64,000 bases of DNA, taken from assembly GCA_943736015.1 (NCBI GenBank), contig OX031062.1:51076962-51140961 (forward strand). The letters run 5' to 3'. Every line of letters begins with the position of its first letter. Positions within the stretch are counted from its first letter, which is position 1. A program made the translations under genes and the position numbers. The notes below the pieces were generated by a model that was given only the letters and a program-made list of their open reading frames with translations, did no database searches and was not told the origin of the DNA. Origin of the DNA: Tridacna crocea (lineage: Eukaryota > Mollusca > Bivalvia > Cardiida > Cardiidae). Positions 3,438-30,890 of this stretch are shown one piece after another.

Positions 3438-3560
3438 CGAGCACGAACGGCCTTTGGCTGTGCGGCTACCATCCGTTTCGTAAAGTCATGTATGATCCTT
3501 TAGTCAAGGAATGTAAGGACGGAAAAGTAGTTCCTCGAACAACTACACCCACTTTGTCAG
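3438..3560 (+). CDS. galaxin-like gene, exon 1 visible (123 bp)
   Basis: The exon is opened by the acceptor TTTTACTTTTTCAG at 3437 and closed by the donor GTATCT at 3561. In the frame starting AGC at 3440 it reads LCGYHPFRKVMYDP then VKECKDGKVVPRTTT, a galaxin-like half-repeat (Cys-Gly, Tyr-Asp-Pro, Cys-x-Asp-Gly). It is phase 1 at both ends, so its length is a multiple of three and it can be duplicated without breaking the frame. It is a clear paralogue of the start of exon 2: both read KVMYDP and KECKDGK, and both follow an intron ending CAGCGCCGTCAGTACTTTGA. Galaxins are secreted Cys-rich proteins known from coral skeletons and mollusc relatives; a matrix role here is inference. The signal-peptide exon is not visible upstream. 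Confidence 0.65.
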
Positions 3561-3738
3561 GTATCTTTATAGCTTCAGAAAAATAAAATAATATATATAT
3601 ATTATATTTTGAAGTACTTATTAGTGTTTTACAAAACAAAATATACAATAAATAAAAGAATTAATTAAGAAAAAAAATCAATTAATAGTGTAAATAAAAT
3701 GTCAAACAGCGGCGAAAAAATCTTAGTACGAGGACTCT

Positions 3739-6374: not shown

Positions 6375-6726
6375 CGAGCATGAACGGCAAGAGGCTTTGT
6401 GGATTTCAACCAAATAAAGTCATGTATGATCCATCAGTGAAGGAATGTAAGGACGGAAAACTAGTTCCTCGAACAACTACATCAACCTTCTCTGATAAAC
6501 TGACAACGGCTCCCACAAATTCAAGCTCTGTACTTCATCTTACAACCACAGGAGCTTTAAAATCAACGGAAGATGTTTTAAAGGGAAGGAACTGCAATGA
6601 GAAGCGTATACCACGTGTTTATAAATGCTGCGGATCGAAGCAAGTGTATCGCCCTGATTTTGACACGTGTTGCCGAGAGATGTCGAAAGTCGCAATTTAT
6701 CCAAATTCTCCCGAGAAAGAGAACGT
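6375..6726 (+). CDS. galaxin-like gene, exon 2
   Basis: The acceptor is TTTTTCTTTTCAG at 6374 and the donor is a consensus GTAAGT at 6727. It enters in phase 1, matching the single G left by exon 1, and leaves in phase 2. The first part (residues ~1-35) repeats exon 1: LCGFQPNKVMYDPS, KECKDGKLVPR. A Ser/Thr-rich linker follows (TTTSTF...LTTTGAL). Then comes a second unit, VYKCCGSKQVYRPDFDTCCRE, with the CCG-x3-Y-x-P-x5-CC spacing typical of galaxin repeats. Secreted location and matrix function are inferred from family resemblance. The frame would stop two codons past the donor if unspliced, which supports the splice call. Confidence 0.72.
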
Positions 6727-6828
6727 GTAAGTTTTGTAAACATAAAACGATTTATAGGACTATCCCAACAAGCTCGACTTTTATCCCCTCCAGCACCATA
6801 AGGCGAAAACATAGGCTTTTGACGAGGG

Positions 6829-8982: not shown

Positions 8983-9212
8983 TTAAACTCATTACCACAC
9001 GACAAAATTTTAGGTTTGTCCTAATTGAAAGCATTTACAGACGACAAAGTAAAAGTGGCTGAAAATTTGAAATTTGTTTTGTAAAGGGTAGAAAATATTG
9101 TGGGAAAAGGAGAAAATGCTGGTTATCAGCATTTTCTCTTTTTCCCACAATGTTTTCTAAAGGCTTCTTTCTCGGGGTCATCAAAAGTCGAGATCGTGTA
9201 TTAATGAGTTAA
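8983..9212. mobile_element. family A TTAA MITE in intron 3
   Basis: TTAAACTCATTACCACACG to GTATTAATGAGTTAA; 230 bp. It fills half of the 455-bp intron between exon 3 and the last exon. Confidence 0.86.
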
Positions 9213-9266
9213 TTCAAATCACAATCCTAGTATTATTTTTAAACACTTTTTTCAATATATTGACAG

Positions 9267-9380
9267 TTTTCCGCATCAAAGCTATATCGCAGAGAGAACA
9301 AATCGTCCTGCAACCCGTCAAACCAACGGGCAAAAGACTACAGTTACCTTTCAAAACAGATAACTACACACCAACAACTA
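9267..9380 (+). CDS. galaxin-like gene, 5' part of split last exon
   Basis: The acceptor is CAATATATTGACAG, with phase 1 entry (G + TT = Val). It reads VFRIKAISQREQIVLQP, then a Lys-rich stretch to NYTPTT, where the transposon begins. Read through into the transposon the frame runs another 37 codons (CCKLYGTKC..., encoded by the TIR) and stops at 9491-9493. As it stands, this allele would encode a changed C-terminus. Confidence 0.6.
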
Positions 9381-10823
9381 CACTGTGTTGTAAGCTGTAC
9401 GGTACGAAATGTGTAGTCACTTCCAAGATGGCGGACTGTTTACATGGAGAAAGGTGGATGTCACATTTTATCATCAATAACTTTTTTTCTTGAAACCTTC
9501 GAGTCATGATACTTATAATTTATTGTTGGGGAATGATGTGGTAAGCCTCGGTACTTTATAGCAAAGAGCCAGTGCCATTATTCGATATGTTATATCGGCG
9601 TAAACATTGCCATTCGGTAAAATTTAAATTTGAAGTGAGGAACTTGCATCGTTTTTAGTTATAGAATGGAAAATAAGCCAATGCAGTGGATGAAGGTTGT
9701 TGATTATGTAGGTATTCATCATGCACTTTCCAATGATTACGGTAATTTTTGTGAAAAATGTCTAGAAAGACCCGAAAACATGTGTTTTGTATATCGCTAA
9801 TGCAGCGGTGTAGTCCACATCAACAATTTCACACACAGCGGTGTAGACTCAATATTTTTTGAACGGTTTAGACACAATTTAAAGCACAATGTATGTACGG
9901 TTTAGACACAAATTTTGGCTTGGTCTTGAAATGAATGTATTCTTTTCTGAATATAATGTAACTTGGCGTTAATCCAGAATCCTGAAAATTGGCACCAATA
10001 GTTCGAGACAGTCTCCCTTATCACCGACACCCACCAAAGGAATCGTCTGGAAACGACAAGGGATCATCGTTGAACGAAGAGAGATAGTTGGGAACAAAAG
10101 AGTGCATCGAGAGATTATTTATGATATTATTTATGTAATAGTCAGTATTATATCACGAAAAAATAAATTATGAAATTACGAATGAATGTTTGTGCAATTA
10201 TAAATCAATTCCAGCATGCTGGCAGCTATAATTTCAATCATTCACTTTGTATGATAATTACCATCCTGGAATTGCCAATCATTTTTATTTCGGAGTTGTT
10301 TGAAATACTTTCGCTGATTAAGATGGAATAGACGATTTGCCAATTAGATTTGACATAAGCGATATTTCCATTTTATCGTAAGCGGTGCACCACACGTATT
10401 ACGTGACACCGGACAATCATAGCATTATTTCAATAACAAATGCAGTATGTCCTGTTTGCAAATCCTTTAAATTTGGACAAATTCATAACTGAAAAGGAAG
10501 AGGCATAGCAAGAAATCTATGGAAATCAATTCTAACACAATTCAAACATATTTCATGATATTGCCTTCGAAAAAAATAATTATAAACAGACAAAATATGC
10601 ATTTTATGAAATCGTATTGAAATAAAGGGCATGTAGAGACTAAGAATGGACTTACCCTCTGAAACCTGTATAAAATTCATAATCCTGACCATTAATGATC
10701 ACCAAAGGGGTAAATTAATATGAAACAAAAGATTAGAAGAGTCAATTAATGTAACACGTGTGTGCTAATCTGTAAGAAGCAAGTACATTACAGCTATTCT
10801 AAAGGTCACCCACCCTGCAGTGC

Positions 10824-11752
10824 GGTACCGAGATCAAAGGAACACCGATTTAACCCTTCACCCATTTTTTTTTTTAGTTAGACTTCATTAGATACATATT
10901 TTTAAATACTCAAAATGAAGCTTGAAGAAGTTATGGAAGTCTGAAATTTGATCTGAAGCCATATTTCTTTTGTTCATGATCTATAACATGAAGTTATTCG
11001 TCAATTGGTACATGCCTGAAAGTGCAACTAAAATGTTTGATAGTAGTGCTTTAAGATCAGTAAATGGACCGTCCCCGTCTTTCTGAAGACACTGGATAGA
11101 TAATCAACCTTTTCTAGTAACCAAACTTTTCCCTTGCTATCCTTCCTAAAGAAAATTTCATTTTTAAGCCACATTCAAATTATTTTCTGCAAAGGCTTTC
11201 AATTTGGGCAAGTCTCAAATTTTTGTTTCGTAAAGAGTTGTGAAAGATTCAGTGTTTTAAAAAATGGGGTGTAGGGGGATAACATCAATATATTAACTGC
11301 AGAAGACCTTTCCTATTTTTATGTCTGATTATTCAACCAATGTTTGCGAAGTTTGTAACGTACAGACTCGTCGTCCAGGAATCTGTGGTTTGATTTATTT
11401 AAACTATTAATGTGATAATTTTTCCAAAAAATCCTTCCAGTATCTGCTTAAAGACAGACACAGTCTACTAACAAAAAACTGGGACATCAAACATTTTGAA
11501 TTTATAGCAAAAACCTTAACTTTGAAATAACATTTTTAAAAATCTGTATATTTGCATGTTTGCCATGTTCATGTCAACTACCATATAAGTTAGCTATCGT
11601 AATAACAAAGTTTAAGTCAAATTTCAAACCTTCCATTCCTCTCTAGAAGAAAAGATGTTAGAGATTCATTTTTAGGAAGTGAATACGTGCTATACTTATT
11701 TTCATTGAAAAGCTAGTAAAGGGTTAGCTGGGTGTTCGTTTGATCTCGGTAT
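10824..11752. mobile_element. inverted-repeat element nested in the 4.28-kb transposon
   Basis: The left end GGTACCGAGATCAAAGGAAC is mirrored by GTTCGTTTGATCTCGGTA at the right. Both are followed inward by AACCCTT-type sequence. Inside lies a decayed family A right half (11095-11235, CTGCAAAGGCTTTCAATTTGG). Confidence 0.5.
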
Positions 11753-12059
11753 TTCACCGTCAAAGTGGATGATCTATATGAAAAGCTGTTGTGTTCTTTT
11801 TAGGCACCGACTAACTCACAAGTGTCATAATTAAGTGTTTATCCCATTTAGTCTTACGTTGATCACTTGTAAAAGTTTGGAATTGTTAAAATCTGTGACG
11901 GAGGGTAAGTCTGTTCTAATTACTGTCGCTAAAAGATGCATTTTTCTGCCCGAATTTTTTTTTTCAAATGCATTATTATGTAACCTGGGTTAACAGGTCC
12001 CACTTTAATGGTATATTTGCACTAATTTCTTTAGGAATGGAGTTTTTTTTTAGTTAAAC

Positions 12060-12263
12060 ATTGTCTTACTAAATGAATTATATGCCACTTCTAAAGCGGA
12101 TAGTAAAACCTCAAAACTTATTTCAAAGGAATATCTCGAGAAAAAAATATCTCCTTATAGGATAATGTAGATCTAGGATCAGACTGCACGTTCTTCCTGG
12201 TGTGATCTGAATCTATATTGTCCGCAAAAGTCATTGAGTCGCGCTTGGCAGCCTAAGGGTTAA
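12060..12263. mobile_element. family D TTAA MITE
   Basis: Palindrome GGATCAGACTGCACG with the decayed partner GTGTGATCTGAATC. The right end is GTCGCGCTTGGCAGCC then AAGGGTTAA. The left end is eroded. It lies within the 4.28-kb transposon. Confidence 0.6.
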
Positions 12264-13667
12264 TGCAGTCTGCATACAAAAAGCTCTATCAACACGCCTG
12301 GCAGGAGACAGCGCTTATGATACCGCTTTACTCTCTGAAGTCTACCGTAAAATTGATAAAACAAGTTTTTTTTGTGCGTGTCTTCGAAAAAGATAACTGA
12401 TAAAACTACCGACACGGCCGTTTTATGTGTTTTGTCTTATTTATCGCATTTAGGGTGTAATCCATTTGAAAAATATGACCCTTTCACTATTCGGGTATAT
12501 ACAAGATTGGGAAAGATTGTCCGGTGGAAAGGGAAGTAACTCGTGGCGACGCGTCAGTAACGGTATTTGGCAAATGGTCTATTCCGTGTGATCGATATTC
12601 ACAATTTTCATTTACCATTGTACAGTTTGATTTCATAATATACGGGCCATGGATTTATATTGATAAAATCGAATGTTACCCATTAAGATAAGTTACTAGT
12701 ATCTCATAAAGTTTTTTATCGTTTTTCGAATGTTCCTATCGGCCTCGGACTACATCTGGTAGGTCAATAGGCAGACCCATTCGCGAAGTACCAAAGAAAT
12801 TTTAATTTCCCATATTTTGATAGAAAGACAGTCGATGATTAGTGAAACACTTTCAAATCATGAATTATTCCTATTTGATATAAGTTTGTCTTTTAGAATA
12901 TACAGGAGAGCAATAATATTGTATTTCCAAAAGCCCTGATGCTATTTTTGTTCCATGAAGTGTCGAACAACACTTTCGAAATCTCCAAATGGGCATTGAG
13001 ATATAAGATAGACAAAATATAAGATAGACAAAGTGTTTTTTTTTTTAAGCAGGTAAATGGTATGTAACACAAATATCAAAAGACCAAGTCTTTCCAGTTC
13101 ATATGTCTAGACCACAGATACGGTCAAATTTTATGTCTAAACCGTACAGAATATAAAGCTTATGTCTGTGTCTAAACCGTTCAGAAAACAACATGTCTAC
13201 ACCGCTGTGTGTGTATATGTTGATGTGGACTACACCGCTGCATTAGCGATATACAAAACACATGTTTTTGGGTCTTTCTAGACATTTTTCACAAAAATTA
13301 CCGTAATCATTGGAAAGCGCATGATGAATACCTACAGAAACAACAACCTTCATCCACTGCATTGGCTTATTTTCCATTCTATAACTAAAAACGATGCAAG
13401 TTCCTCACTTCAAATTTAAATTTTACCGAATGGCAATGTTTACGCCGATATAACGTATCGAATAATGGCACTGGCTCTTTGCTATAAAGTACCGAGGATT
13501 ACCACATCATTCCCCCACAATAAATTATAAGTATCATGACTCAAAGGTTTCAAAAAAAAAAGTTATTGGTGATAAAATGTGACACCCACCTTTCTCCATG
13601 TAAACAGTCCGCCATCTTGGAAGTGACTACACATTTCATACCGTACAGCTTACAACACAGTGAACTA

Positions 13668-13819
13668 GGCTGCCAAAGAATAGTATCATACTTGCGACCA
13701 GAAAGGACCTGTCCAAGGCACATGACTTCATTGCTACTGGAACAGATACATTCTATACAGTGAGAAGACAGCGAAAGTCTCGTAGAAAGCTGCAACGAGC
13801 GCTACGACGTAGATGTTAG
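13668..13819 (+). CDS. galaxin-like gene, displaced 3' part of last exon
   Basis: With the transposon and one AACTA removed, codon 9380 joins 13668-13669 (A + GG = Arg). The frame then runs LPKNSIILATRKDLSKAHDF to a very basic end (RRQRKSRRKLQRALRRRC) and stops at TAG 13817-13819. About 50 codons stay open exactly in the predicted frame, which is good evidence that this was one exon. No AATAAA is close downstream. Confidence 0.6.
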
Positions 13820-30507: not shown

Positions 30508-30890
30508 TGTACCTTACAACGGCAAAAAATATAACTTGTCCAAATTAAAAGTATTTGCAGAAAAATAACTCAAATGTTTCTCAGATTATGGAAGTTTGCT
30601 TTGATAGGATAGAAAACAATGTGGAAAAAGGAGAAAATGCTGGTTACCAGCATTTTCTCCTTTTCCCACAATGTTTTCAAAAGCTTCGTTCTCTTGACTG
30701 ATAAAATTCATTTTGTAATGTAAAGGAGCATTTTCTCCTTTTCCCACAATGTTTTCAAAAGCTTCGTTCTCTTGACTGATAAAATTCATTTTGTAATGTA
30801 AAGGAGCATTTTCTCCTTTTTCTCTCAATGTTTCAAAAAGGCTTCATTTTCATGAATTATAAAATTTACTTTAAAATTTGTGAGGGTTAA
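30508..30890. mobile_element. family A MITE with 78-bp tandem expansion
   Basis: From 30651 the right arm plus GTTTTCAAAAGCTTCGTTC and AAAATTCATTTTGTAATG occurs twice with no difference I can see (30651-30728 and 30729-30806). A third start follows at 30807. The counterpart at 27350 has one fewer unit. Confidence 0.8.

Follow-up and report, generated by a model that had tools for sequence, protein, structure and literature searches.

What kind of mobile element interrupts a coding exon at the locus studied here in the bivalve Tridacna crocea, and what has become of the interrupted gene? The locus lies in a stretch of 64,000 nucleotides (assembly GCA_943736015.1, contig OX031062.1, positions 51,076,962 to 51,140,961), which we call the window and to which coordinates without a locus or contig name refer. 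A preliminary description had proposed that the exon was split recently by a non-autonomous element of the Transib/RAG group, with long terminal inverted repeats (TIRs) and a 5-bp target-site duplication (TSD). To judge from the copies that we read, the window element looks like one of about 230 copies of a TIR transposon family that is non-autonomous, with a rare coding copy possible. It would be a cut-and-paste family whose transposase is supplied in trans and is most likely Transib/RAG-like, a reading that we hold with moderate confidence.

The element occupies positions 9381-13662 (4,282 bp), and AACTA is present directly outside both ends, as originally described (Table 1). Both ends start with CACTGTGTTGTAAGC. 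The inverted ends, first put at about 570 bp, are long and share this start but are slightly shorter than proposed: they match over 496 bp ungapped at 96% identity, or over 537/538 bp at 93.7% if one gap is allowed. The window element contains no stop-to-stop open reading frame (ORF) of 100 amino acids (aa) or more.

The same boundaries are found in other copies. The genome comprises 1.05 Gb in 31 contigs, of which about 299 kb of sequence was read, so the sample of copies is partial, and one batch of it is biased towards copies resembling the window element. A probe made of the TSD and the first 120 bp returned 524 candidate places; the best 40 of these 524 were scored, all at 98-100% identity. 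The terminal 16-mer, CACTGTGTTGTAAGCT, occurs exactly 467 times in the genome (232 + 235): As a control, the reversed sequence was searched and found 1 + 0 times. Halving the count of terminal 16-mers gives roughly 230 elements. The first 15 bases of the 16-mer followed by A, C or G have no occurrence in the genome, and a pattern search for variant ends returned 41 + 49 places, compared with 6 + 3 when the pattern was reversed, those listed being mostly single-base variants of the family end.

The ends themselves are highly uniform. In the 25 copies with a perfect TSD, CAC is present at 50 of 50 ends, CACTGTG at 49 and the exact 16-mer at 47; many copies were picked via one end, so that only the far end is unbiased in these counts, and two deviating inner ends at locus L030 were left out of the 50. 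Across 18 of the 25 copies (the other seven, which have a rearranged TIR or duplicate a site, were excluded), the mean departure from the majority base is 0.000 in left and 0.006 in right TIRs at positions 1-20, 0.000 and 0.008 at positions 41-60, and 0.000-0.067 elsewhere. The low variation at the TIR termini is suggestive of terminal conservation. Where both TIRs of one copy are intact, they are 92-97% alike over 500 bp.

The length of the TSD in other copies had been set beforehand as a test that could refute the proposed assignment, and the assignment withstood it. A perfect TSD of exactly 5 bp flanks 25 of the 28 two-ended copies read (for L013, L016 and L039, which are not part of this count, one end is in hand), and in those 25 no longer match was seen, up to 11 bp. 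A matching 5-mer flank has a chance of about 0.0013 per copy. The flanks of L034 match in four of five bases, one of the two elements of L030 has TGTAT on both sides together with a changed terminal base, and the other is flanked by ATATT twice only when its inner end is granted one additional base. L009 and L012 have identical flanks and were counted once, which leaves 24 independent TSD sites. With the sites turned to element orientation, a pyrimidine (C or T) precedes the TSD at 21 of them and a purine (G or A) follows it at 19; the first base of the TSD is A in 13 and the last is T in 14. The pattern, YA-NNN-TR, reads as a palindrome with a single base at its centre, which is what a symmetric stagger of 5 bp would produce.

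Members of the family vary from 518 bp to 8.2 kb in length and are set apart by extensive internal deletions and by nested insertions. The commonest size is 3.65-3.69 kb, that of 17 of the 39 plus/minus pairs counted by hand on contigs 1-3 from the 16-mer listing. The family looks non-autonomous because no transposase was recognised in the copies read, by ORF and partial Pfam scans, in agreement with what had been proposed. The longest stop-to-stop ORF among 19 copies has 137 aa; the longest in other copies have 169 aa (L032), 153 aa (L040) and 122 aa (L042). Pfam searches with six-frame pieces of parts of L019, L032 and L034 gave no match at the curated cut-off: L019 had only sub-threshold matches, to DUF6650 (E = 0.025) and SF3a60 (E = 0.38), and L034 had none.

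Several loci were considered as autonomous copies and rejected. L032 carries an insertion of about 3 kb with no Pfam match, and the long ORFs of L031 and L013 belong to nested retrotransposons (of reverse-transcriptase type by eye). The one in L013 (1200-7600) lies inside a family member and has two long ORFs of 526 and 1,249 aa. No transposase was found in L016, L039 or L040 (these three and L013 were checked by ORF and blastn only). The class of about 3.67 kb came under suspicion because, of the best 40 of 1,243 candidates scored for an interior probe, none lay within the 17 pairs of 3.65-3.69 kb; a 501-bp stretch of one member, the part of this class that was compared, is 97.8% identical to L032. 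What appeared to be a single long copy at L030 (51-8756) is two members in inverted orientation about 2.1 kb apart, with the same internal make-up and different flanks. Both carry an altered inner terminal base, which suggests a changed-end source copy that still moved. The right end of L042 at first looked unlike that of the family, with just 16 bp in common, but a hairpin repeat is inserted 8 bp from that end. This near-perfect hairpin repeat of about 410 bp (L042 4430-4855) has an apparent 8-bp TSD, AGCTTACA, and 1,477 first-look candidates in the genome, the best 40 of which were scored.

Which transposase, then, could move this family? We favour a Transib/RAG enzyme because of the strict 5-bp TSDs, the CAC ends and the CACTGTGTT heptamer context, and regard the assignment as not proven. 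Transib and its non-autonomous derivatives share with the family the 5-bp TSD and CAC termini, and CACTGTG is one base off the Transib form CACWATG. It is likewise one base off CACTATG, the TR1 heptamer of ProtoRAG (six of seven bases; RAG-like elements also make 5-bp TSDs), and CACAGTG, the heptamer of the vertebrate recombination signal sequence (RSS). From the last it differs at position 4 only, and the earlier remark that the ends lean towards the RSS form is a fair one. CACTGTGTT is the exact first nine bases of the element ends and ranks near the top of the heptamer contexts tried with mouse RAG: In a screen of randomised RSSs it heads the TT-spacer column of that paper's Table 1 at 1.141, the highest entry shown there being 1.168, and position 4 of the heptamer shows the least base discrimination (PMC9723617; here and below, papers are cited for individual passages). 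Among the 20 papers listed in a full-text literature search, which did not extend to Repbase, one carried CACTGTG, a paper on RSSs. The CMCT clade, which includes Transib, is described as having CA..TG termini in most cases and TSDs of 2-5 bp (PMC12730594), and Repbase is described as assigning a non-autonomous element to a classified family when the TSD length agrees and the terminal positions 1-11 align with no more than one mismatch (PMC4455052).

Weaker support comes from a second motif. CAAGATGGC, the reverse complement of GCCATCTTG, is present at TIR positions 44-52 in all 25 left TIRs and in 21 of the 25 right ones, the exceptions being the right TIRs of L021, L031, L041 and L042. The GCCATCTTG 9-mer is reported as both the TR5 element of ProtoRAG and a YY1 site, and lies 27 or 31 bp inside the ProtoRAG heptamer (PMC7481187, PMC8289069), compared with 36 bp in the present family. 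A role for this YY1-type site is presumed.

A number of observations weigh against the assignment or mark differences from the closest known systems. TIRs of about 540 bp are long for Transib, and YY1 sites are common in mobile elements. The TR5 match, which has a chance of about 2e-4 in the first 60 bp, was spotted after the fact, and its orientation is opposite to that in ProtoRAG. The ends fit the protostome RAG-like TIR consensus CACTWMCAAACKTYKBB at CACT only, positions 5-15 failing. Compared with a vertebrate V(D)J signal, inspection by eye showed nothing like the nonamer ACAAAAACC at a spacing of 12 or 23 bp, and the motif is the end of a transposon and not a receptor-gene signal. The near-identical ends are unlike those of ProtoRAG, which is described as preferring asymmetric TIRs (PMC8289069). 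The targets differ too: G and C make up 25 of the 120 bases (21%) in the 24 TSDs, against an expected fraction of 0.372 (P = 1.4e-4; window 0.373), whereas ProtoRAG, Transib and RAG are described with GC-biased targets (PMC8289069). Finally, 5-bp TSDs are also made by the hAT5 group (PMC12730594).

The search for a partner gene adds to these points. An autonomous partner with the same ends, encoding a Transib or RAG1-like transposase, had been anticipated, and three probes of this type gave none that was convincing, in a genome search whose coarse first filter diverged genes can escape and which had no positive-control genome. The best E values were 5.55 for the mouse RAG1 core, 5.71 for lancelet RAG1L segments and 0.68 for a Transib pseudo-consensus; this pseudo-consensus scores 413 bits against the solved HzTransib. 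Protostome RAG-like transposons have RAG1L and RAG2L genes in convergent orientation, and with the mouse and lancelet probes no convincing gene of the RAG1L kind was found. The Pfam RAG1 family PF12940 had no match in the genome, an uninformative result since 0 of 14 controls matched either. Re-scoring the probe-found loci with tblastn gave E values of 1.1e-4 (L035), 4.7e-4 (L029) and 0.003 (L038), which are circular as the loci had been picked by the same queries; re-scoring with a hidden Markov model (HMM) gave 0.86 or worse. The weak matches at L035-L038 were rejected as partner genes, with matching frames of 55-79 aa that contain stops, and so was that at L029, where the ORFs look by eye like something else. 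L029 (1-3507) holds a cluster of ORFs resembling, by eye only, a large mobile or virus-like element. On the minus strand of L036, two weak collinear pieces in the same frame match the Transib HMM (E = 0.86 and 18) and are possibly an old, broken Transib relic, or a chance match. A survey of mollusc genomes is reported to have found a single Transib element (PMC10294476), so Transib can be rare. Of the features looked for in the Transib/RAG group, the family shows the 5-bp TSDs and the CAC ends and lacks the GC bias of the target, a feature that is usual there but does not strictly define the group.

A more specific form of the Transib/RAG reading, which we consider rather unlikely, is an undescribed lineage of this part of the CMCT clade. 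It would cut at the RSS-like CACTGTG, have near-symmetric ends with a TR5/YY1 site, prefer AT-rich targets bounded by pyrimidine and purine, and be too diverged for RAG1 and insect Transib probes to detect.

Possible, if on balance unlikely, is that the transposase comes from elsewhere in the CMCT clade, whether from EnSpm/CACTA, Chapaev or a lineage without a name, or from a superfamily not yet described that combines CAC ends and 5-bp TSDs with AT-rich targets. The AT bias that sits poorly with known RAG and Transib would then be accounted for, as would the failure of the RAG1 and Transib probes, and ends starting CACT agree with the clade-wide termini and TSD range given above. However, within the clade only Transib is known to us to make 5-bp TSDs, those of Chapaev being 3-4 bp; EnSpm is described as making 3-bp TSDs (PMC12730594), and no partner gene was seen for this reading either. 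We consider it distinctly improbable that the family owes its mobility to a transposase of hAT5, the hAT group with 5-bp TSDs. Besides the TSD length (PMC12730594), the second base (A) and the fifth (G) of the ends follow the general rule for hAT TIRs. At position 3, hAT ends usually have A or G, where all 50 ends have C, and the target palindrome centred on a single base is unlike the hAT pattern nTnnnnAn. The scanned parts of L019, L032 and L034 contain no hAT domain, in a comparison that did not extend to a genome search for hAT. Ginger2 was dismissed since its ends start with TGT, although it makes 4- or 5-bp TSDs (PMC10045372). That the locus reflects chance or an error of assembly, the 5-bp match of the flanks having arisen by accident around an inverted repeat, could be entertained while nothing beyond a single locus was in view, and is refuted because other copies repeat the boundaries and TSDs, with 467 exact ends and 5-bp TSDs in 25 of 28 copies at a per-copy chance of 0.0013.

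Under the favoured Transib/RAG reading, a DDE transposase supplied in trans would recognise CACTGTGTTGTAAGCT, the conserved bases at the termini, and presumably cleave at the heptamer. It would excise the element and join its two 3' ends to the target at flexible pyrimidine-purine steps, with a stagger of 5 bp between the target strands, and repair of the staggered joints would leave the 5-bp duplication.

What the insertion did to the host gene can be read from the frame and from a paralog. When the element and one AACTA are taken out, the frame is open over the junction and continues for 50 further codons to a stop, bearing out the proposal that the element split a coding exon in frame. Across the junction, the 87-aa peptide aligns with C7:51150551-51150811 end to end (residues 1-87, 57% identity, no stop, E = 3.7e-21), and by this homology the split exon is real coding sequence. 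The matching paralogous exon, about 10 kb past the window, is uninterrupted. An upstream exon of the host gene (6380-6727) has its counterpart at C7:51146836-51147099 (57% and 55% identity in two pieces), which sits 3.5-3.7 kb upstream of the paralogous last exon. Since both exons have counterparts in order, the two are tandem genes about 64 kb apart with a common exon order. Pfam gave sub-threshold matches for the upstream exon (IGFL, E = 0.00043; Galaxin_repeat, E = 0.033) and no match for the joined exon. The insertion-bearing frame stops at 9491-9493; as predicted from this frame, the insertion swaps the last 50 codons for about 37 that the TIR supplies.

Against eight other copies, whose own counts are 7 to 61, the window copy shows 52 private substitutions over 4,259 sites (about 1.2%). 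This level suggests that the insertion is fairly young, but not brand new. Of the claim of a recent insertion, what holds is that the insertion is, on this sequence comparison, young enough for the 261-bp frame to survive; it is not extremely recent.

Table 1 Features of the disrupted exon and the inserted element in the window.
Feature	Position	Strand	Basis
Upstream host-gene exon, sub-threshold galaxin/IGFL similarity	6380..6727	+	Pfam, paralog match
Last coding exon of host gene, 5' part	9267..9380	+	Acceptor AG by eye at 9265-9266
Left target-site duplication AACTA	9376..9380	.	Sequence
Host-frame read-through into left TIR, 37 codons then stop	9380..9493	+	ORF 9161-9493
Whole TIR element, 4,282 bp	9381..13662	+	Boundaries same in other copies
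Left terminal inverted repeat, 537 bp	9381..9917	+	538-column alignment with right TIR, 93.7%
Terminal 16-mer CACTGTGTTGTAAGCT, including RSS-like heptamer CACTGTG; putative site of recognition and cleavage by the transposase	9381..9396	+	
GCCATCTTG YY1-type site (= ProtoRAG TR5 9-mer), left TIR, inverted relative to ProtoRAG	9424..9432	-	
Right terminal inverted repeat, 538 bp	13125..13662	-	TIR alignment
GCCATCTTG in right TIR	13611..13619	+	
Right-end terminal 16-mer	13647..13662	-	Sequence
Right target-site duplication AACTA	13663..13667	.	Sequence
Same exon, 3' part, up to TAG stop	13668..13819	+	Joined frame, homology

Other repeated sequences are present around the gene. A degenerate extra copy of the upstream exon lies at 3446-3679 (45% identity, three stops), so the locus has at least three related units. 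A 33-bp hairpin (94%) at 9089-9159 closely precedes the disrupted exon, and sequence resembling it is found again at 30649-30866 and at the L018 insertion site. Many arrays of tandem units of about 166 bp fill parts of 21453-52305, in both orientations by eye.

The split exon and its intact tandem paralog together make a clean case of a C-terminus exchanged for TIR-encoded residues. Should the transposase prove to belong to another group, the family would serve as a warning that CAC ends and 5-bp TSDs alone do not identify Transib. V(D)J recombination descends from transposons of the Transib/RAG kind. If the transposase is found, the roughly 230 copies, with their near-perfect RSS heptamer context and ProtoRAG YY1 9-mer, would offer many natural substrates, with which the evolution of the heptamer, the inner element and the target preference could be tested.

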